Below are positions 13,488-61,469 of a DNA stretch of 64,000 nucleotides, in pieces. Below the pieces are notes generated by a model that was not told where the DNA came from, ran no database searches, and saw only the letters and a program-made list of their open reading frames with translations. This DNA is from Arbacia lixula (Eukaryota; Echinodermata; Echinoidea; Arbacioida; Arbaciidae), in NCBI GenBank assembly GCA_963669155.1, contig OZ022588.1, forward strand, positions 7,526,679 through 7,590,678, read 5' to 3'. A program made the position numbers and the translations under genes. The first letter of the stretch is position 1. Every line of letters starts with the position of its first letter.

Positions 13488-13830
13488 TACGGAAGCTTAA
13501 AAGTGCCCCCAGAAGACGAGATAATTTAGGACGTGAAGACGAGAAGACGAGACGAGAAGACGAGAAAAAGAGTCAAGAAGACAAAAAGACAAGATCTTGG
13601 ATCTCGTCAAGTCGACTTCTGTAGGACGAGAAGACAAAAAGACAAGATCCTGAGAAGACGAGAAGACGAGAAAAAGAGTCAAGAAGACAAAAAGACAAGA
13701 TCTTGGATCTCATCAAGTCGACTTCTGTAAGACGAAAAGACAGAAAGACAAGATGCTGGATCTCGTCAAGTCGACTTCTGTAAGACAAGAAGACAAGAAG
13801 ACAAGATCTTGGATCTCGTCAAGTCGACTT
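13488..13830 (+). repeat. Left terminal inverted repeat of the 4.85-kb element
   Basis: Four passes of a degenerate block ending gatctcgtcaagtcgacttc-like sequence, preceded by a unique 60-bp end that matches the right terminus in inverse. Confidence 0.85.
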
Positions 13831-14459
13831 GATGAGGATGGGAAGGCAAGAAGGCGAATTCGAGGTCGTCGCTCTATACGACCGACTCTAGGCTATATAT
13901 AGGCAAGGGTGTTTGTCTATTGTGATCAGGCTTGACGCAACGTTTCATATTCACACTCATAACATCGTTAAAACTTGTATAAAATCTACCAGTTGGTGTG
14001 ATGGCTGAAAATGCAGTTGAGAAGGAGGGCGACTCTCCTTCGTCGACAGAGTTTAATGACGACGACAACGACAAAACTGAACCTGAACCCATCAAGCTTC
14101 TATGTTTATAGTCCTGGAGCCCAGAAGATTTATTCATATGAAAAGGGCCGGAACAACTGACCCCATAGGTCGAAAGGATATACCCTGGACATCACAAAAA
14201 TGTTTTGCTGGCAAGGTGTACCCGATGCTTTTCCCCCCAAATCACCACAAATGTGACGTCACTACCGGAAAGCCTTTTTTTTTTTAAATAGTCAGAATAT
14301 AATACATGGTACCGTCATAACAAAGTGTGAACACACATTTTTTATGCCCAATTATCAAACTTGATTGGTATATTTTGGTTGCCTAATAAATGTACAACAT
14401 CATCATTGACTTGTTTTGGCAATGGCAGGTCTGTGGGCGACGTCGACGACGACGACATG

Positions 14460-16100
14460 TCGCGACGACGTCAGCAAAATGCAACACTTTTGTTCGTTTT
14501 TTGTGCTCTTTTTCGGTTAAAACTTTTTCAATTCTTGTAGTTCACAAACCATTCCAAATATTTATTTTAAACTTAGTTTGCTGTGTTTGGCATCTCTCAT
14601 GCTTTTCAAAACATATAAGAATGTGACGCTAATGGCCATCTCCTGACTAATAATAAAGCGTAGTGTTTTGGAAGAATGCACGTAAAGTCGTACAAAATAC
14701 TGCCTACGTCCTGTACACGCGTATATTCTGGATATGTGCTACTGTTTGGTTGCCCGGTTTGGTTGAAACATTTTAAATCCTTGTAATCCAAGAACCGTAC
14801 CACACATTTCCTTTTAATTTAGCCTTCTATTTTTGGTATTTCTTCCACTTTTTAAAACATATATGGACGTTACACATTGTCACACCTATGGTTATCTCCT
14901 GACCAATAATGTAACGGAGCATTTTGGAACAACTGCGTAAAATCGGACAAAATTCTGCGTATTCACTGCATACGTGTATACTCTGTATGCGTGTTACTTG
15001 TGGATTGGAACTTGTTAGATCCTCGTACTCCAAGAACCATACAACATATTACTTTCCGACATGTTCTGGTGATTTTGGCATTTCTTCTACCTTTCAAAAC
15101 ATATATTGATGTTATATATTATCACGCTTATAGTCATCTACTGACCAATAACATAATGTCACATTTTGGAAGAACGAGCGTAAAATCCGACAAAATACTG
15201 CATGCGTTCTATAAATGCGGATATTTTGCTACGTGTTACTCTTCGGTTGAAACTTTTTAAAAGCATTGTAATCCAAGAACCGTCCAACACATTTCCTTTT
15301 CATTTAGCCTTATGTTTTTTGGCATTTCTTCCGCTTTCCAAAACATGTATGGGTGTTGCACATTGTCACATCTATGGTCATCACCGGACCAATATTGTAA
15401 CGGAGCATTTTGGAAGAATTGAGTGAAATCGGACAAAATTATGCGTATTAACTGCATGCGTGTATTATTAGGTACTTCTGTTACTTGATGGTTGAAACTT
15501 TTTAGATCCTCGTACTTCAAGAACCATATAAAATATTACATTTCGACATGCTCTGTTGTTTCAGGCATCTTTTAGCCATTCAAAACATGGATGTTACATA
15601 TTGTCACGCTTATAGTCATCTCCTGACTAATAGCATAAAGTATCGTTTCGGGAAAATGAGCGTAAAATCTGACAAAATATTGCGTATAACCTTTTGTGTT
15701 CGGTATACGTGTTCTGGATGCCTGATACTTTTTGTTTGAAACTTTTTATATCCCTTTTGCTGAAAATCAGTTAGAACTTAGTTCTTTCAGACTTCCTCTA
15801 ATGTTTTGGCATCTGTTCCGCCTTTCAGTAAATGTATGGATTTCACATATTGTTACACTTATGGTCATCTAACATCTCTGATGTCTAATAATATACAGAA
15901 ACATTATGCAAGAATGCGCGTCAAATCGGACAAAATAGTGTGTCGATGCTACATACATGACACACGTGTATGATTCATGCCCGTTTTTCTTTTTGCACGA
16001 AACCATTAAACCTATTGTTGTTAAAAAAAAATCATCCAACATATTTCTTCGAAACTTGTACTAATATTTTTGCTTATTGTCTGCTTTTTAGATATGCCTA
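14460..16100. repeat. Tandem array of about 245-bp units with dimeric higher-order structure
   Basis: The word catctcctgacyaataa recurs at 14637, 14893, 15135, 15379, 15617 and, diverged, 15866, giving spacings of 238-256 bp. Alternate units are more alike: catttcctttt-atttagcctt occurs at 14805 and 15290 (485 bp apart) and ttac-ttccgacatg-type units near 15049 and 15536 (487 bp apart). So a two-unit block of about 486 bp was amplified. Each unit also carries aaatcggacaaaat and ttggcatttctt. No coding frame runs through it. Confidence 0.85.
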
Positions 16101-17550
16101 TTGTAATATTTAGTAAGGATATCATTGTAAATAAGGTATTAACATTAAAATACACACTATGTTGATCTTGCTTTCCTTGTACATGGGCAATATCAACATC
16201 AATTTTTTTTCTGGCAATGGAAGCACCCTGGGCAACGTCAAAAGTGACGGCTTGCCGCGGTGCCGTCTGTGAAAGCGTGTTTTTTTTTTTTTACATTTGG
16301 AAGTATTGCTGGTTTTGATGAGAATTAAGTGAAAATGTTGCGTTCGACAGATTGCTTTCCAAGTTTCTTTGAACTTTTGGATTTTTATTCATTTTTTTTT
16401 CGGGGTGGGGGGGGGGGGGGGTGGGGTGGGGGGTGGGGGATGAAACCCACTATAAATTACGAAATGTCAAGGTTGCTTACAATTCAAGAACGATGGCCGA
16501 CTAACCCCGAAGTATGTTGGATTCTACTTTGTCGATGAGGTGCACTGTGTACATTAATGTGTTGATACATGGCAGATTGTGAACATAGCCATGTCCTTCC
16601 CCCCCAAAGTACCAAAGTTTATGACCAGACCCAGTCACGGCAGAATGGTTCTACCATGATAACGGCGTGATGATAGTAACCCCAACTTTAAACTCAGTTG
16701 CCTGCATGGTATGGGCGCAATAGCTCATGCGTTTTCCGGCGACATCGACGACGAAGGCATGCAGCGGCCATGTCTGTTTTGGTGGTGAAATTTTGCATGT
16801 ACATCTATCATAATCCGTTTAGCATGCTCCATTCACACTATAATTAAGTATGGTCCACATGTGGGTGCCCTGCTAATGCTGATTGTGGTAAGGATTACGG
16901 GGCCACATTACGGGACCATGACTACATTCCAAATTATTGTTAGATATCATGACTGCTTTAAATTGTTTTGAAATTATGGAATAGTTAAGATCAAACCCGT
17001 TATGATACAAAACGGTTCAGTCATGATTCGTTTATTATTTTTTGACTAGCATATATTAAGGTGTGGGGTGAGCCTTCTTCAATGCATGATTTTGAGTTTG
17101 TGATCAAGGGGGTTATAGGATTGATATCAAATCGACGACCCGAAATCCATGAATATGCATTATAACATAATTACATAAGTAAACAAATATTCCAACTCTT
17201 ACCCGTACGTGAACGAAATGCTTGATCGATGATGAATAATGATGTATCTGTGTTTTACGATTATAAGCATAAGCTGGAGCCGGAAGGATAGTTTAGCCAC
17301 CACACACATTGTCACACTTAAATAGATTTACAGCATTTTTGAAGAATGTAAAAGTGACTTTTCGAAAGATTTCCGGAAACTTGCCAAACACTCTTGGTTT
17401 GCGTCAGTTTGGCAATTATGCTCGTGGAAGCAAATATCTACTGGAGGCTCACATCTAACATGTCTAATGTGTTTGTGAAAGTAATCTGTCAAACAAATAC
17501 TTGCCAAATTTCACTACAAGCTTAAAAGGGTATTTCAAATATAATTAAAT
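16101..17550. other. Interior of the 4.85-kb element, non-coding
   Basis: No transposase-like frame. It contains T runs, a G-rich tract near 16401-16440, and ggcaatgg..gggcaacgtc at 16215 that echoes ggcaatgg..gggcgacgtc near 14418, so related sequence brackets the tandem array. Confidence 0.5.
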
Positions 17551-17790
17551 TTCGCAGGCGTCGCTATTTCATGTCTCCGTCGCCAGTGGCGTAGACAGGT
17601 TCGTTCACCTGGGGGGGATGATTGGGCTGCCAACCCTCGAGAGGGCGCGAAAGCGCCCGAGCGAGGGAGCGGAGCGACCGAGCCGGGGGGAGGGTGTGGG
17701 AGGGGGGTGTCCCCCCTCCCACGGTAGGGAGCTTTTGCAATTTTGAAGTTGAAATCGTGCAATCTGATGCATACTTAATGAGGTAAAATA
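17550..17790. repeat. GC-rich dispersed-type repeat
   Basis: A compact GC-rich block (gtggcgtagacaggttcg, gagggcgcgaaagcgcccga, gagcgagggagcggagcg, cccctcccacggtaggga) unlike its AT-rich surroundings, containing strong local hairpins. Its composition suggests a repeat inserted in the larger element. I cannot name the family. Confidence 0.5.
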
Positions 17791-17879
17791 ACGCACACAA
17801 GCGTGCACGCACACACACACACACACACACATACACACACATATTCGCCTTCTTGCCTTCCCCTCTTGCCTTCCCCTCC

Positions 17880-18335
17880 TCATCAAGTCGACTTGACGAG
17901 ATCCAGGATCTTGTCATCTTGTTTTCTCGCCCTACAGAAGTCGACTTGCCGAGATCCTTGGATCTTGTCTTTTTGTCTTCTTGTCTTACAGAAGTCGACT
18001 TGACGAGATCTAAGATCTTGTCTTCTTGTCTTCTTGTCTTACAGAAGTCGACTTGACGAGATCCAAGATCTCGTCTTCTTGTCTTCTCATCCTACATAAG
18101 TAGACTTGACGAGATCCAAGATCTTGTCTTTTTGTCTTCTTGACTCTTTTTCTCGTCTTCTCGTCTTCTCAGGGTCTTGTCTTTTTGTCTTCTCGTCCTA
18201 CAGAAGTCGACTTGACGAGATCCAAGATCTTGTCTTTTTGTCTTCTTGACTCTTTTTTCTCGTCCTCTCGTCTCGTCTTCTCGTCTTCACGTCCTAAATT
18301 ATCTCGTCTTCTGGGGGCACTTCTAAGCTTCCGTA
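17880..18335 (-). repeat. Right terminal inverted repeat of the 4.85-kb element
   Basis: Inverted counterpart of 13488-13830, with five to six passes of the aagtcgacttgacgagatcc block and the closing end ggcacttctaagcttccgta. Confidence 0.85.
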
Positions 18336-35631: not shown

Positions 35632-36766
35632 TGTCTCGCCCACTTCCGAAAATAACCAGAAATATCGCGATCTCCGTTGCTACGCAAAAGAAAACTGAAA
35701 CAAACAAATAAGCAACTTTAAACAGACAACATCAAAATCAGGTGCAAAATAGTGACTTTGAATAAATTTGCATAAATGTGCATGAGTAATGTTTGCCTAA
35801 ATCTACATCAGTAATGCTCACACATGCTCACACAATTCTGTGCACAAGTTAGGAAGCCTTCACCAAGAGTCTTGCAAGTAAACTTTAATGTATGACCTCA
35901 AATGACCTTTGACCTTATCATGTGACCTCTTACAGCACAATAACATGCAGGTGCCCCCAGTGCATCCATCATCCAATTTTGATTGCCATTGTAGCAACAT
36001 GTGATGAGATATGTGTGATAAGAGAGTCTTGCAAGTAAACTTTAACGTATGACCTCAAATGACCTTTGACCTTATCCTGTGACCTCCAACGGTACCATAA
36101 CATGAAGGTACCCCCAGTGCATCTATGACCCAAGTTAGGTTGTAATCCAAGCAACCTATGTGAAGTTATTTGTCAAAAGAGAGTCTTGCAGGTAAACTTT
36201 AACGTATAACCTCAAATGACCTGTGACCTTATCCTGTGACCTCCAACAGCACCATAACATGTAGGTACCCCCAGTGCATCTATGACCCAAGTTAGGTTGT
36301 AATCCAAGCAACCCATGTGAAGTTATTTGTCAAAAGAGAGTCTTGCAGGTAAACTTTAACGTATGACCTCAAATGACCTTTGACCTTATCCTGTGACCTC
36401 CAACGCCACCATAACATGAAGGTACCCCCAGTGCATCTATGACCCAAGTTAGGTTGTAATCCAAGCAACCCATGTGAAGTTATTTGTCAAAAGAGAGTCT
36501 TGCAGGTAAACTTTAACGTATGACCTCAAATGACCTTTGACCTTATCCTGTGACCTCCAACGCCACCATAACATGAAGGTACCCCCAGTGCATCTATGAC
36601 CCAAGTAAGGTTGTAATCCAAGCAACCCATGTGAAGTTATGGATCATAAGAGAGTCTTGCAGGTAAACTTTAACTTTTGTGACGGACGACGGACGGACGA
36701 CGGACGGACGACGGACGGACGCCATTTGGATCCCTTAGTCTCGCCTTCACCTCCGGTGGGCGAGAC
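35632..36766 (-). mobile_element. Nested tandem-core element with GGACGGAC microsatellite
   Basis: Inverted subterminal words tgtctcgcccac (35632) and gtgggcgagaca (36755-36766) bracket, in plus order, a unique region, five 157-bp tandem units (35867-36651) and a GACGGACG microsatellite (36680-36720), then a hairpin gtctcgcc..ggcgagac. Short inverted ends, tandem core, microsatellite and terminal hairpin are the layout of Helentron-derived non-autonomous elements (HINE/DINE type) and of sea urchin and bivalve tandem-core elements. The minus-strand reading matches the element at 59820-61336. Confidence 0.75.
35867..36670. repeat. Five tandem 157-bp units, each with a DR1-type TGACCTTTGACCT
   Basis: gagtcttgcarg begins at 35867, 36024, 36181, 36338, 36495 and 36652, exactly 157 bp apart. 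Units 1, 2, 4 and 5 carry TGACCTTTGACCT (for example 35903-35915); unit 3 has TGACCTGTGACCT. Confidence 0.95.
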
Positions 36767-36992
36767 AAAAAGCAATTTATCGACTTGTTTTGTACACAAC
36801 ATATTGGAGAGCACCTCGCATTGTGATGTCACAAAGTCAAAATTTTAAAATCAAATTACTTTCTTTTCCTTTGACCGATTTTCGTAAAACCTTCACTTAT
36901 ATGTTTCTTTCATTTGTCTCTTTATTGAAACCAAAATAATTTCAGAGTGACCTTCCCCTTTAAAAGGCTGGTGTTGATGAGGCAATGGGTTG

Positions 36993-39900: not shown

Positions 39901-42900
39901 AAATTTGAGTACGTAACACAAATGGGCTATTGGAATGGAAGGCAACGTAGTCTTGTTCTCACCTTGCAAGCTTCATGCCCATCTTGGGGTAGGAGGTGCC
40001 ATAGTAGTGTCCCCTTTGCCAGTTTGGGTCCGTCATGATGGCCCGCCTCTGCAGGTAGCGAAGAGCGATGGAGCTGGCATGGGTCTGGGCACATGCAGAG
40101 ATCGAAATCGCCCTGGGCATCGGGGGTAGAAGGGGGTGGGGGGCGGAGGTCAGTCAGTCATTCGAAATAGTTAAAAAGCTTTGCTGACTCCCGACATCCA
40201 CACTTGTTATGCTTGTTATTCTGACTGAATTTGTTGATTTTCATGATTGGGTCTGTAAATCATGGAATATTTTTAAATAGATGTCTTGTAAAGAAAGAAA
40301 GAGGCAGGAATGTCCAAGATTTTAGCTTTTAGTCTCCACTCCACTCTTTCAGTTCATATGTTTCTCTATTTACATTGTTAACATATATGTAGGATTTTAA
40401 TGTTTGGATATCTATATTGGATTTGAATGCATCTTGTCTTTTATGAGTGGAATAAAATGAATCCTGGATCTAGAAATTGAAGGCCTTCGAGCCTTCTTAC
40501 TTCTTGCCAATGACATCCAATGGTTTTAGCTTTGCTCACCTATTGACTCTATCAGGGAAGAGGGCCGCAGCCAGAATGGAACACATGCCTCCAAGTGATG
40601 AACCAAGTGCTGCATGAACCTGCAAATATGTGCATTGAGGGTCTCATAGATTTAGAAAGGATTACAATTCTACAAACAAGAAGCATGTATTCATCAGTGA
40701 AAGTTCAATAAACATTATCTCTCTGTATCTTACTTTCTTCCTTCCTCACTGTATCTCTTTGTCCTTCTCTCTCTCTCTCTCTGTCTCTGTCTCTCTCTCT
40801 CTGTCTCTGTCTCTCTCTCTGTCTCTCCCCCTCCCCCTCTCTCTCTGTCTATGGCAATGCCCTTGGGCATCTTCTGTACCTGTTTTTTGCAGGGCTAAAC
40901 CTCCCCTGCCTTTCCATATCCCAAGGTGATAAATGTGAACGTTGTTCATTGGTTACGGGACCTCACGTTGCTTTCTCCCAACTTAACCCCCTTTCTCTTC
41001 AAATCTGATGGTGGGTCACATACAGTCACATACAGTGAAGTCTGAGACCAACTGCACAATTCTCCCTATCACATATAGCTCTCCAAATCTGTATGCGTTT
41101 GGAGCTCTAATTTTTTTACCTTTCATTCTTGGGATATGAACTTCCGGTTCACAAACATTCTATAGCCATCGTCTTGCTCGTGTCTTTTCATTCTTTCATT
41201 AGTCCATCCACAATCAATGTTGAGGTAGGCAAAAACATCGCCGTGAGTGATTGGTGGTATTTTTTCAAGTCCTTTGTCCATGTAACAACCCTTCCATTTT
41301 AATATTACGAGGTTTACGGGGGTCAAAATTAACAGATTCTGTGCATTATTAGGTGAATTGAATACGTACCAAACTCTTACCGAAAGTATACGTCCCAAGA
41401 GCAATCGATCAGATATTGGTATCGCGAGGTGATATCGCTTGATATCGGCTATATGCGATGGGGAGAATTGCATTGACTGCAATCGATTCCAATCAAATGC
41501 AATCAGCTCCATGCATTTCTACATGTACACATTCATTGCAATCACCCGCAATTGATTTCACTCTCTGCTGTATTCACAGCAGGACAACACTCAGTTCTGA
41601 CCTTCTCAATGCCCAGGTGGTCCATGAGTAGAAACTGGACGTTCACCATATCATCCACAGTGACCAGAGGGAAGGTGGTACCATACGGCTTGTTGGTGAT
41701 GGGGTTGATGGCTGAAGGCCCACTGAAAATACAAAGGATACATTGGAGAACTGCGGTTTAGTGGTCAGAATCTCTTGTCTGTGGAGCATCTGTGGAGCAC
41801 TGTGGTTTAGTGGTCAACTAATTCGAGAAGTCTAGTTTGGTTCATACACTCTTATCATAATCTGTGAAGCACTGAAACACTGAAGTATTCTAGACGTCTT
41901 ACGTTCAAGTGCAGTCTGGTGCAAACATCCTTATCATAATGAAATTGAATATCTGTGGAGCACTGGCACATACAACCTTATGCAATGAAATTGCACATCT
42001 GTGAAGCACTGCAGTTCAGTGGTCAGAAGGTCGTGGCTTTTATTCTAGACGTCCTACATGTAGGTCCAAGTGCCTCTGGTGCATGCATCCTTATCGTAAT
42101 GAAATTGAAAATCTGTGGAGCACTGCGGTTCAGTGGTCAGAAGTTCATGCCTCTCATTCTAGGTGTCCTAGCTTCAAGTCTAGTCTGGCACATACACCCT
42201 AATCACAAGGAAATTACACATCTGCGGAACACTGAGGTTCAGTGGTCAGCTCATGTCTCTCATTCTAAAAGTCCTAGATTCACATCTAGTCTAGTGCATA
42301 CATCTCTATCTCAATGAAATTGCACAACTGTGGGCACTGCAGTTCAATGGTCAGAAGGTCGTGGCTCTCATTCTAGACGTCCTAGGTTCAAGTCTAGTCT
42401 GGCACATACACCCTTATCTCAATGAAATTGCACATCTGCGGAACACTGAGGTTCAATGGTCAGAAGGTCGTGACTCTCATTCTAGGTGTCCGAGGTTCAA
42501 GTCTAGTCTGGCATACACCCTTATCTCAATGAAATTGCACATCTGTGGAGCACTGCAGTTCAGTGGTCAGAAGGTCGTGCCTCTCATTCTAGACGTCCTA
42601 AATTCATATCTAGTCTAGTGTTTACACCCTTTATCACAAGGAAATTGCACATCTGTGAAGCACTGTGGTTCAATGGTCAGAAAGTAGTGGCTCTCAGTCT
42701 AGACGTCCGAGGTTCAAGTCTAGTCTGGTACATACACCCTTATCGCAATAAATGCTTATGGGCAATTTTGATATACAATGCGATTCATAGTACACAAACA
42801 CTGTGTATCGCACCACGAATGTTTATTTAGATGACCGAGTGTAAAGAGCAGATCTACATTTGTGTACACAGCAGAATAGCAAATAGCCCTTATCGGAATA

Positions 42901-55618: not shown

Positions 55619-57797
55619 AATATCAAGAAAATATGTAAACTGAATTCAAACCAATCGCAAATTCCTGGTGCTGAGTCTAATCCCACAGCTACTGCAATAT
55701 CTATCAATGCCCACTTTGCAGCAATATGTTCTCGACTGCCCCCTTTGAATCATGCATCATTACCTGCATATTTACCTGCAACGGCACCTCCTATCATTTA
55801 TCCTGGTCAAGTGCTCAGAGTCTTACGGAAGCTCAAGGCATCAAAAGCGGGACATCCCACTGACTTACCTATAAAATTGGTAAAAGAATTTGCCATAGAA
55901 CTTGCTGATCCATTGACCCATATTTTTAATAAGTGTATCCAAGATGGAATTTTCCCCAATAGTTGGAAAACCGCAGCGATCACACCTATTCCAAAGGAGA
56001 AGACTATAAACTCTCTTGATCAATTGAGACCCATATCTCTCACACCAATTTTCGCTAGAGTCCTCGAGACGTTCATTGCGAAGTGGGTAATTGACGATGT
56101 TGTGGAGCACATTGACAGACAGCAGTTTGGAAATGTCAAAGGATCCTCGACAGTTCATTATTTAGTGGATCTTATGAAATTTGTTCTTGAGGGTCTTGAT
56201 AAACCTGGACACTATGCTTACCTGACTACAATAGATTTCACCAAGGCGTTTGATTGGGTAAATCACAACATAGTGGTGAAAAAATTAATAGAACTTGGTG
56301 TGCGCAGGTCCATCATACCTGTTATTTGCAGTTTTCTCACAGGCAAAACTCAATGTACTAAGATAGGAATACATACTTCACCATTATTGCAAATTTCCTG
56401 TGGTGTGCCGCAAGGCACCAAACTAGGCCCAGTTTTATTTCTGATCCTTGTGAATGATGCCGCAGTTGATTGTGAAAACAAATGGAAGTACGTAGATGAT
56501 TTGACACTGGGAGAAGTTGTTGCAAGAAACAAGCCTCCTACCCTACAAAAGTTACTTGACAATGTCTCACAATGGTGCCAACACAATGATGTTCTCCCTA
56601 AACCTGCAAAGTGCAACCTTATGAGTGTTTGTTTTCTCCGGCACATGAACCCTCGTACTGATTTTTCACTCAACAATGTTCAACTTAACGTAGTTTCTCA
56701 CTTGAAATTGTTGGGAGTTATAATCCAAGATGATTTAAAGTGGAACCTGCATGTTGAAGAAATTGTGACAAAAGCATCTCGAAAACTGTACACCCTCTGT
56801 ATCCTTAAAAAGTGCAAGACCCCCATTGAAGACATGGTAACAGTGTACTCCTGTTATATCAGACCGGTTCTTGAGTATGCATGTCCAGTATGGCATACGT
56901 CCTTGACAGAAGTTCAGACCAGTAAAATTGAATTTGTTCAAAAAAGAGCTCTTCGAATCATCTTGGGTGCTAACTACACTAACTACGATAAGGCTCTTGA
57001 AGTGTGTAAACTTCCAGCTCTAAGTTCTCGCCGAGATGCACTCCTTCAGAGCTTTGGCGCTGGAGTCTTGCGTTCGGCAAAGCACAGACATCTACTTCCA
57101 CCAACAAAAGCAAGCACTCTCACCAGACAACTACGTAACACATCCGGTTTATGTACCATTAAATGCAATACAGAACGGTTTCGCAAATCAACAATCCCCT
57201 ATCTGGCACGCACATTGAAAGCTTAGAATAAAAGGAATAAATTTAATAAACCTCAAATCTATCATACATGTATAATTCCCTGTCTCCTTTAATTTCTTGT
57301 CCAAACATTATACTTATTTACATCTCGCCTGTCTTTGCTGAATGCTTGATTCCGGTGCTGGAGCTATGAAGGAGTGCATCAGCAAAACAAACAAACAAAC
57401 AAACAAACAAACATTCAGCAAAAATTCACAGAAACACGTTAAAACTTGAAATAGGTCTTTTTTTTTGTCAAATGTTATTTTATGGATGTAATTACTACTA
57501 TCATATATGAAACGTATATTTCAGTCAATTTCACTTTCACTTTATTTGGGCCTGGTTTGTTTCCGTTTAGTTTCGTTATAAATACCCATTGATACATGTT
57601 TTTGTATATTTTTGTATATGTTATATCCCTTGTACTTATTGTATGTAAAATTGATTTTTGTTGTTGTTTATGCATGAATATTCAATATTGAACTTGCCCA
57701 CTTAATGTAGACTTTTGTAAACTGATGCTTTCAGCCTGTGCTGCTAATCAGTCTTCTATATACCAATTAATAATAATAAAAAAAAATAATAAAAATC
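55619..57797 (+). mobile_element. 5'-truncated non-LTR retrotransposon
   Basis: An intact reverse transcriptase frame is preceded by only about 125 nt of in-frame sequence (INAHFAAICSRLPP before the Met at 55745) and then a stop. No endonuclease domain or ORF1 is present. The 3' part holds AATAAA right after the stop (57227), a (CAAA)n run at 57384-57412 and ends in an A-rich (AATAAT)n tail near 57765-57797, as expected for target-primed insertion with 5' truncation. Confidence 0.85.
55745..57226 (+). CDS. Reverse transcriptase of a CR1/Jockey-like LINE (493 aa, N-terminus truncated)
   Basis: Role: copies element RNA into DNA at a nicked target. Motifs in order: GHPTDLPIKLVKEFA; LRPISLTP (about residue 94); motif A TIDFTKAFD with Asp164; GVPQGTKLGPVLF (about 220-232); catalytic YVDD at 249-252 (Asp251, Asp252); LKLLGVIIQDDL; and the C-terminal YIRPVLEYACPVWH and RALRIILG blocks typical of the Jockey/CR1 group. 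The frame is open without stops, so the insertion is young or recently active. The Met at 55745 is just the first in the frame; the true protein would start upstream with an endonuclease. The exact clade (CR1, Rex, Daphne or other) is not certain. Confidence 0.93.
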   Translation: MNHASLPAYLPATAPPIIYPGQVLRVLRKLKASKAGHPTDLPIKLVKEFAIELADPLTHIFNKCIQDGIFPNSWKTAAITPIPKEKTINSLDQLRPISLTPIFARVLETFIAKWVIDDVVEHIDRQQFGNVKGSSTVHYLVDLMKFVLEGLDKPGHYAYLTTIDFTKAFDWVNHNIVVKKLIELGVRRSIIPVICSFLTGKTQCTKIGIHTSPLLQISCGVPQGTKLGPVLFLILVNDAAVDCENKWKYVDDLTLGEVVARNKPPTLQKLLDNVSQWCQHNDVLPKPAKCNLMSVCFLRHMNPRTDFSLNNVQLNVVSHLKLLGVIIQDDLKWNLHVEEIVTKASRKLYTLCILKKCKTPIEDMVTVYSCYIRPVLEYACPVWHTSLTEVQTSKIEFVQKRALRIILGANYTNYDKALEVCKLPALSSRRDALLQSFGAGVLRSAKHRHLLPPTKASTLTRQLRNTSGLCTIKCNTERFRKSTIPYLARTLKA

Positions 57798-59485: not shown

Positions 59486-59878
59486 ACAGTCTGCAGGCAG
59501 CAGAATACACGCGTATTTTATTTTCAGCTCGGTAGTCGTGACCTTCACTGTCTTGACCTCTCGAACCGCGGAAAAGATCTCCTTTTCAAACTGCGATATC
59601 TCCATGAATAAACCATATTTTCGTACACTTTCTTTTGCAAGTGTATGTTGGATGTCGAAATTAACAAAGTGTGAAAAACATTTAATTAAAACAAGCAGAA
59701 AAAATATTGCAAATTAGAGATAAATATGTGGTTCTAATTTAAAAAAAAATGAGAATAAACTCTATATTTCAATGTCAATCGCCTATGAGCCCCCAACGCT
59801 TATAGATCATCTGAAGGGAATCTATTGCACTTTTTATGCCTCCGCCACGAAGTGGCCGGAGGCATTATGTTTTCAGGT

Positions 59879-59950
59879 TGTCCGTCCGTCCGTCCGTCCG
59901 TCCGTCCGTAAGTCCGTCCGTCCGTCCGTCCGTCCGTCCGTCCGTCCGTC
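59879..59950. repeat. (GTCC)n microsatellite of the tandem-core element
   Basis: About 18 units of tccg with one interruption (gtaagtcc). Confidence 0.95.
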
Positions 59951-60059
59951 CCGAATCCGTTTAGGCAATATCTTGAGAACCGTTTAGCAGATTTGCTTCA
60001 AACTTGGTACATGTATGTATTGCATGAAACTAATGAAGTGTGTAAAATTGGGGTCAAAT

Positions 60060-61100
60060 CTGATTGAGGTCAAAGGTCAAAGGTCAATGAACGTTGTAAA
60101 AATTGCCCCAAAATGACCTTTTCCACAATAAATCCAAATCCAAGGATGCAATTCTCATTAAACATGGTACAAGGAGTGATCACTACTTGGGGATAGACTG
60201 GTGACATTTTTGGTAAAGTTCCTGAAAGATCAGAGGTCAAAGGTCAATGAAATTTGTGAAAATTTGCCAAAAATTGACCTTTTTCACAATAAATCCAAAT
60301 CTAAGGATGCAATTCTCATTAAACATGGTACAAAGATAGATAACTACTTGGGGATAGACTGGTGACATTTTTGGTAAAATTCCTGAAAGTTCAGAGGTCA
60401 AAGGTCAATGAACTTTGCCAAAATTGGCTAGAAATTGCCCCAAACTTTAAATTTTTCACAATAAATCCAAATCCAATGGTGCAATTCCAACCAAACATAG
60501 TGAAACGATGGATCACTACTTAGGGGTAGACTGGTGACATTGTTGGTGAAATTGCTGGAAGGTCAGAGGTCAAAGGTCAATGAACTTTGCAAAAATTGAT
60601 ATTTTTCACAATAAACCCAAATCCAGATCCAATGGTGCAATTCTAACCAAATATAGTACAGAGATGTTTCATGGAGGTAGACTGGTGAAAGTCTGGGTAA
60701 AACTCCTGAGAGTTCAAAGGTGAAAGGTCAAAGGTCAATGAATTTTGCCAAAAATTAGCTAAAAATTCCCCCAAAGTGATAATTTTCAAAATATATCCAA
60801 ATCCAATGGAGCAATACCAACCAAACATGGTGCAAAGATGGATCACTACTAGACTGAGGACATTTTTGGTGAAATTTGTTGAAGGTCAGGGATCAAAGGT
60901 CAATGAACTTTGCCAAAATTGGCTAAAGATTGCCCCCAAATAGATATTTTTCACATTGAATCCAATACTAATGATTCAATTCAAACCAAACATAGTACAG
61001 AGATGTATCACGTAATGGAGGTAGGCTGGTGAAGTTTGGGTAATATTCCTGAAAGGTCAAAGGTCAATGAACTTCACCCAAAATTTGGCTAATTTTAAAC
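60060..61100. repeat. Seven tandem units of about 160-170 bp carrying AGGTCAAAGGTCA
   Basis: aggtcaatga starts at 60081, 60241, 60402, 60574, 60732, 60897 and 61061. Six of seven units have AGGTCAAAGGTCA just there, and the first has three AGGTCA in a row with 1-bp spacing. Units also share cacaataaatccaaatc and gactggtgacatttttggt. Confidence 0.92.
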
Positions 61101-61469
61101 AACCTTGATACAAGGATGGATTTAGACAGACTGGTTAGATTGGAAGTCAAAGAAGTAAGAGGTCAAAAGTTAATGAGCATTGCCAAACTTGGCTAAGCTT
61201 GAAAAAACAGAATGTGATATTTTCATTTCACATAGGAGCAATGGTACAGTATTGCCCACCAAACATACACATTTTCTGAGAATAGCAAATAGGCGGAGGC
61301 ATATTTATCGACTGCGTGGCAGTCGAATTGCTCTAGTTGAAAATACATGTAGCAGTATTTTTCAACCTCTCCTTGTAGAAGGGTCAGGATCCAGCAAAAT
61401 ATCAACCATGTTCAAATCCAAGATGCTTGAGTCATGACGAAGTTGTGAACGATCCTAACCAACCAATCA

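Follow-up and report, generated by a model that had tools for sequence, protein, structure and literature searches.

The window, that is, the whole stretch of 64,000 nucleotides of Arbacia lixula DNA analysed here, contains on its forward strand (59831-61336) a 1.5-kb non-autonomous Helentron (HINE) of a high-copy family, here called family A. The core of the element is a tandem array in which a block of AGGTCA half-sites is better conserved than the rest of the unit. We favour the reading that this is a selfish element keeping a docking array for a host nuclear receptor, in which receptor binding would aid the HINE and rolling-circle transposition would spread the array. Judged from the sequence, we give this reading a probability of roughly 0.45.

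From 5' to 3', family A consists of a hairpin with a subterminal repeat, a GTCC microsatellite, eight units of ~160 bp, a 3' subterminal repeat, a palindrome, and CTAG followed by TT (Table 1). The last two of the eight units in the window copy are shortened. The subterminal inverted repeats ATGCCTCCGCC and GGCGGAGGCAT are located near the two ends, the 5' one is palindromic, and both vary by less than 10% per column among 30 copies. The 5' hairpin has a DNA fold z-score of -6.1, and none of 200 shuffles was equally stable. The end of the palindrome CGACTGCGTGGCAGTCG is 11 bases from the end of CTAG. The family consensus comprises 1,485 bases, from TTTTTATGCC to CTCTAG, and similarity drops sharply beyond these ends in the alignment of the 30 copies (loci L009-L038, including the window copy), which are the best 30 of 48 matches, with 40 of 3,388 candidates scored. 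The first-pass annotation had described the 3' hairpin and the CTAG before a T, and both are present; the start, which it had set at 59820, is placed by the alignment at the T-run, 59831.

Among the 42 loci searched, a T-run was found at 37 left ends, where each of five positions reads T in 35 to 37 of the ends, and TT was found at 37 of 39 right ends. Both ends could be located in 31 copies, the flanks of which are 31 different sequences on each side. No target-site duplication beyond the T's was seen in these 31 copies; 22 of them have no flank repetition, the longest repetition is 3, and the pattern resembles that of mismatched pairs. Genome-wide, the 3' end of family A matches at 2,216 positions with at most 3 mismatches, while the reversed control gave 0. 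The aligned copies, the matching 3' ends, and the two-ended copies in distinct flanks all support the proposal that the element is mobile. However, it shows no gene of its own and would need a partner to move, so that the earlier wording "can move" holds for past movement rather than for a present ability of its own. A search of Rfam across the window gave no matches.

Table 1. Features of the family A and family B elements, by position in the window.
Feature	Position	Strand	Basis
Family A HINE, complete	59831..61336	+	abrupt ends, 30-copy alignment including the window copy
5' T-run, hairpin, and 5' subterminal inverted repeat ATGCCTCCGCC	59831..59865	+	fold; <10% variation per column in aligned copies
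(GTCC)n microsatellite	59880..59951	+	Tandem Repeats Finder
Unit 1, receptor-like block: three consecutive AGGTCA (two overlapping DR1) followed by A and TGAACG, which is TGAACT in the family consensus	60067..60093	+	
Unit 2, DR1; downstream half degenerate (TGAAAT)	60234..60246	+	
Unit 3, DR1 and IR1-like composite AGGTCAAAGGTCAATGAACT	60395..60414	+	
Unit 4, DR1 and IR1-like composite; extra AGGTCAG upstream at 60560	60567..60586	+	
Unit 5, DR1; downstream half is TGAATT in the window copy	60725..60737	+	
Unit 6, first DR1 half degenerate (GGATCA); IR1-like AGGTCAATGAACT intact	60890..60909	+	
Unit 7 (shortened), DR1 and IR1-like composite	61054..61073	+	
Unit 8 (partial), decayed site AGGTCAAAAGTTA	61160..61172	+	
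3' subterminal inverted repeat GGCGGAGGCAT	61292..61302	+	reverse complement of the 5' copy
3' palindrome CGACTGCGTGGCAGTCG, hairpin	61309..61325	+	DNA fold z-score -2.9, 3/200 shuffles as stable
CTAG 3' end	61333..61336	+	sequence, copy alignment, genome-wide 3' ends
TT after the family A HINE, target or terminal T	61337-61338	+	right-end comparison
Family B HINE-like element, approximate extent	35640..36800	-	subterminal repeats TGTCTCGCC/GGCGAGACA, CCGTC-rich microsatellite, five 157-bp units

The DR1 13-mer, AGGTCAAAGGTCA, occurs as seven exact sites on the forward strand of the element, at 60067, 60074, 60234, 60395, 60567, 60725, and 61054, in line with the array of DR1 sites reported by the first-pass annotation. 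The three consecutive AGGTCA of unit 1, likewise reported, form a 7-bp tandem. The annotation had also assigned a DR1 to six of seven units; the six are exact (units 1-5 and 7), but the units number eight, and the exact site is lost in two of them. Allowing one mismatch, AGGTCAAAGGTCA is found 14 times in the whole window, compared with 0.14 on average over 100 shuffles. Besides the seven exact forward sites (60067-61066), there are four exact sites and one with one mismatch on the reverse strand (35903-36543), and sites with one mismatch at 60560 and 60718.

Nuclear-receptor response elements consist of RGKTCA half-sites at DR or IR spacing. The core of the family A consensus contains 21 such half-sites in the forward and 8 in the reverse orientation, while the maxima over 1,000 shuffles were 11 and 5; since the units are repeats of each other, these counts are not independent. 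By the general rules for receptor sites, the block AGGTCAAAGGTCAATGAACT can be read as a DR1 (AGGTCA-A-AGGTCA) whose second half also belongs to an IR1-like pair (AGGTCA-A-TGAACT). An additional upstream half-site varies among the consensus units between AGGTCA and AGTTCA, both of which are permitted by RGKTCA.

The 607-Mb genome contains 23,903 exact copies of AGGTCAAAGGTCA (11,850 + 12,053), compared with 48 (15 + 33) for the reversed control, and these counts, together with the window shuffles, rule out that the DR1 is a chance word. The carriers were sampled at 26 loci (L039-L064), which take in every cluster of the 100 listed sites and lie within the initial 4.1 Mb of contig C1, one stretch of one contig, and were classified by BLAST against one family A consensus and one family B copy. 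Of the 101 exact sites, 44 belonged to family A, 53 to family B, and 4 to neither, which places 97 inside one of the two families, and the 28 clusters were divided into 14, 10, and 4, respectively. One of the four sites outside the families is element-like: a single-unit HINE-like element at ~2540 of L050, here called family C, with the subterminal repeats TGTCTCGCC/GGCGAGAC, the palindrome GTGGTTCGCGAACCAC, and one DR1, as judged by eye. The other three (L039:2309, L042:2502, and L054:2547) lie in DNA that by eye looks unique and is partly flanked by exons. L054 and L042 have additional half-site-like words close by, and all three sites are candidates for ordinary response elements.

The conservation between units was assessed in an alignment of the seven consensus units of family A, from which the partial eighth was excluded. 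The mean pairwise identity is 0.956 in the DR1 window and 0.676 across the unit, which places the DR1 ninth among 149 windows. Each of the eleven highest-ranking windows begins within the block, and all of them lie within AGGTCAAAGGTCAATGAAATTTG of unit 2. Eleven of the 13 DR1 columns are invariant, compared with 36 of the 159 others (p 1.2e-5), and the corresponding numbers for all eight units are 10 of 13 and 24 of 159. For the wider 20-bp block AGGTCAAAGGTCAATGAACT, which was picked after viewing the alignment, 17 of the 20 columns are invariant, compared with 30 of the 152 others (p 1.4e-8); with eight units the numbers are 15 of 20 and 19 of 152. The conservation maximum covers the middle half-site and the ATGAA downstream of it, which is not predicted by a plain DR1. 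The DR1 alone was rejected as too narrow a description of the conserved feature; the block is a composite that is wider than the DR1. When the search model had its DR1 columns masked, AAAGGTCAATGAA came out as the best window; this held for 245 units taken from 30 loci as well as for 69 units taken from 13 diverged family A loci, the latter recruited via an exact DR1. The masked-model alignment has false gaps at units that are one AGGTCAN shorter, and the DR1 variants that it lists are to be disregarded.

Differences between the copies of family A were examined with CpG columns excluded, both in the copy comparison and on the tree. Among the 30 copies, substitutions account for 26 of 2,527 bases in the DR1 (1.03%) and 847 of 33,250 in the other non-CpG columns of the core (2.55%), and singletons for 13 of 2,527 and 260 of 33,250. 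When the position of the DR1 was shifted along the unit, the true phase ranked 7th of 160 by substitutions, with the six better shifts all overlapping the DR1, and 18th by singletons. The terminal branches of the tree contain 14 DR1 changes where 23.7 were expected (p 0.019), and the internal branches contain 2 where 8.5 were expected (p 0.008). The reductions on internal and terminal branches do not differ significantly (p 0.26), for which reason the inference of host selection on single copies from this contrast was dropped. For the wider core, 31 changes against 42.1 expected were counted on terminal branches and 8 against 15.1 on internal branches. Taken over all half-sites in the 30 copies, variation is 1.71%, which is not below that of the spacers (1.53%); it is 2.60% elsewhere, and 316 of 5,000 random hexamer placements did equally well. 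The first-pass annotation had asked whether the DR1 is as variable as the rest of the unit across genomic copies. It is less variable, but the reduction is modest among these young copies.

The family B element in the window lies on the reverse strand at approximately 35640-36800, and no 3' palindrome was identified in it. The unit consensus reads AGGTCA-7-AGGTCA-1-AGGTCA-4-AGGTCA and contains five forward half-sites, a number reached in none of 2,000 shuffles. The family is uniform across 11 loci, ten of which were recruited via an exact DR1 and the eleventh of which is the window copy, and it is probably younger. In the 68 units from these loci, the four AGGTCA hexamers show variant bases at 3 of 1,452 positions (0.2%), the spacers at 17 of 727 (2.3%), and the other non-CpG columns at 357 of 7,149 (5.0%). 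Sixteen of the 17 spacer variants are in the first spacer, and the TTTG spacer has none. Only 9 of 20,000 random placements matched the four hexamers. The same test was weaker when restricted to the two hexamers that lie outside the DR1 (527 of 20,000), and it gave 225 of 20,000 when the GGGTCA elsewhere in the unit was added as a fifth half-site. The DR1 core exceeds its flanks in conservation between units, as had been anticipated, and the hexamers of family B are likewise low in variation.

The units of families A and B remain colinear when all half-sites of the block are cut off, with a score reached by none of 5,000 shuffles of B and one of 5,000 shuffles of A, and this argues for a common descent of the units. 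With the DR1 alone cut out, which leaves a single AGGTCA in both, the score is 181, the best shuffle 171, and none of 2,000 shuffles reaches it. The units of A and B are therefore probably related by descent, if distantly, and the receptor-like block appears to be their best preserved part. With the DR1 cut out, the score between A and C was reached by 25 of 2,000 shuffles and that between B and C by 114. For the left part of A, before the array, the score was reached in 1,011 of 2,000 shuffles against C, 242 against A, and 91 against B. For family C, with its single unit, the evidence of kinship is no more than suggestive.

Taken together, the constraint on the block appears clear on the long scale, whereas on the short scale it is modest. 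This would be the pattern of a constraint that holds in the active lineage but leaves most insertions unaffected, although low mutability of the motif may also account for it. Under the reading that we favour, the half-sites would have been retained because a host nuclear receptor would bind them to the benefit of the element, for example through accessibility in germ cells or early embryos while the partner Rep/helicase acts. Rolling-circle transposition would disperse the arrays, most copies would afterwards drift, and a few could turn into receptor-responsive switches.

The main alternative, possible but less probable, is that the conserved block serves the machinery of the element itself, as a site for the partner Rep/helicase or as a signal for making or keeping the array, and that its likeness to receptor sites is coincidental. 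It would explain why conservation peaks on AAAGGTCAATGAA, off the centre of the DR1, and it agrees with CAAAGGTCAATGAACTTTG in family A being almost palindromic. However, the near-palindrome was rejected as a common feature, as it is missing from the family B consensus and from family C, and family B nevertheless has four AGGTCA at differing spacings. Moreover, the hexamers of family B vary less than its pooled spacers (3/1,452 compared with 17/727), which suggests that the half-site is the unit being kept, as a receptor would need. A parallel is provided by the bivalve satellites BIV160 and Cg170, whose repeats are 160 and 170 bp long, as their names indicate, and thus similar in length to the family A units. 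They are related to the CvA repeats of pearl elements and contain two motifs that are conserved despite divergence, the role of which is given as not known in the available part of the source (PMC5139131); these motifs fit a role in the machinery of the element.

It is unlikely that the block has no function at all and reflects repeat homogenisation, low mutability of the motif, or slippage of the 7-bp AGGTCAA, multiplied by transposition. The modest reduction in young copies (singletons 13/2,527 compared with 260/33,250) is consistent with such an origin, as are the tandem triplet in unit 1 and the reduction also on terminal branches, which low mutability would produce. However, homogenisation should affect the entire unit, while invariant columns are concentrated in the DR1 (11/13 compared with 36/159), and CpG columns had been excluded from the copy tests. 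Furthermore, the half-sites in family B start 13, 7, and 10 bases apart, which is not a 7-base slippage ladder.

We consider it improbable that many copies serve the host as receptor-responsive enhancers kept by host selection. The somewhat low number of DR1 changes on terminal branches (14 compared with 23.7 expected, p 0.019) would fit this, and precedents, as far as described in the accessible text of the sources, are the HSF-1 sites in Caenorhabditis Helitrons (PMC6927752) and the HNF4 sites in Alu (PMC3252374). However, the statistic is weak, and constraint on the element or low mutability would give the same result. The reduction in young copies is only modest and gives no clear sign of host selection on many copies.

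Canonical Helitrons have a 5' TC, insert between A and T, and end in CTRR. While the CTAG with a hairpin just upstream fits such a 3' end, the start TTTTTATGCC contains no 5' TC, T is found on both sides (a T-run to the left, TT to the right) rather than A and T, and the palindromic subterminal inverted repeats, the microsatellite, and the tandem core are traits of HINEs, so that a canonical Helitron is very improbable and was ruled out on the 5' end and the target. The earlier label "Helitron-like" is better read as Helentron/HINE.

The closest known elements are Cg_HINE of Crassostrea gigas and the bivalve pearl elements, which consist of a 5' subterminal repeat with an inverted copy, a microsatellite, repeats of mostly 140-180 bp, a 3' subterminal repeat, and a palindrome (PMC7492417). 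Cg_HINE inserts at oligo-T without duplication, and there are multiple families per genome with related or unrelated cores. Layout and target are alike in these elements and family A. The part of the same source available to us describes two conserved segments in the oyster HINE repeats of clusters CL1, 2, 10, and 13 that are in common with CL4, and makes no mention of receptor sites in the repeats of Cg_HINE. The DINE-1/HINE elements of Drosophila, a mite, and Culex share with family A the subterminal inverted repeats, the 3' palindrome, and the unmodified T-rich target, and some copies are tandem-repeated; compared by description, they differ in that no DR1 arrays are described in the accessible text (PMC4067079).

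Dispersal of binding sites by mobile elements has also been described. In the portions available of PMC6927752, Caenorhabditis Helitrons resemble family A in that a rolling-circle transposon disperses clustered sites of one host transcription factor, and its authors also speculate on a selfish start. However, those sites are heat-shock elements, for which HSF-1 recruitment and heat induction are experimentally reported. Alu elements with HNF4 (PMC3252374) or DR2 (PMC1785376) receptor sites disperse nuclear-receptor sites, as here, but Alu is a primate retroelement and, in the text available, has no conserved tandem array. Tandem-core HINEs and Helitrons that spread transcription-factor sites are thus already known. 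The open-access full text searched, which covers few subscription papers and no figures or supplements, yielded no report of receptor sites in Helitrons, Helentrons, or bivalve satellites.

Oysters and other bivalves are rich in HINE and pearl tandem cores and the related satellites, and a conserved block that reads as receptor half-sites turns the question about the role of such motifs into a binding experiment. The ~24,000 exact DR1 sites in this one genome, nearly all element-borne in the sampled stretch, provide a test bed for regulatory sites spread by transposons, and the family A element is well suited to the question of whether receptor-controlled switches are hijacked or distributed by elements of this kind. 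A broader and more doubtful extension is that tandem-core Helentrons may be an old class of receptor-docking transposons, in which AGGTCA clusters would be kept across families despite turnover of the remaining unit, since bound host receptors would promote spread. The conserved motifs of pearl, BIV160, and Cg170 may then be the same, and thousands of ready-made arrays would have been sown through animal genomes.

The window contains several other features. Two tandem arrays at 41963-42753 and 498-851, with units of 109 bp and 181 bp, contain no DR1 at up to one mismatch. A foldback-like structure at 13488-18335 has inverted arms of at least ~370 bases composed of 53-bp tandem repeats, which include a pair of 289 nt that is 92% complementary, and a 242-bp tandem array between them. 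An open frame of 493 amino acids on the forward strand at 55745-57226 contains a reverse transcriptase domain (PF00078) and is perhaps the remnant of a retroelement.
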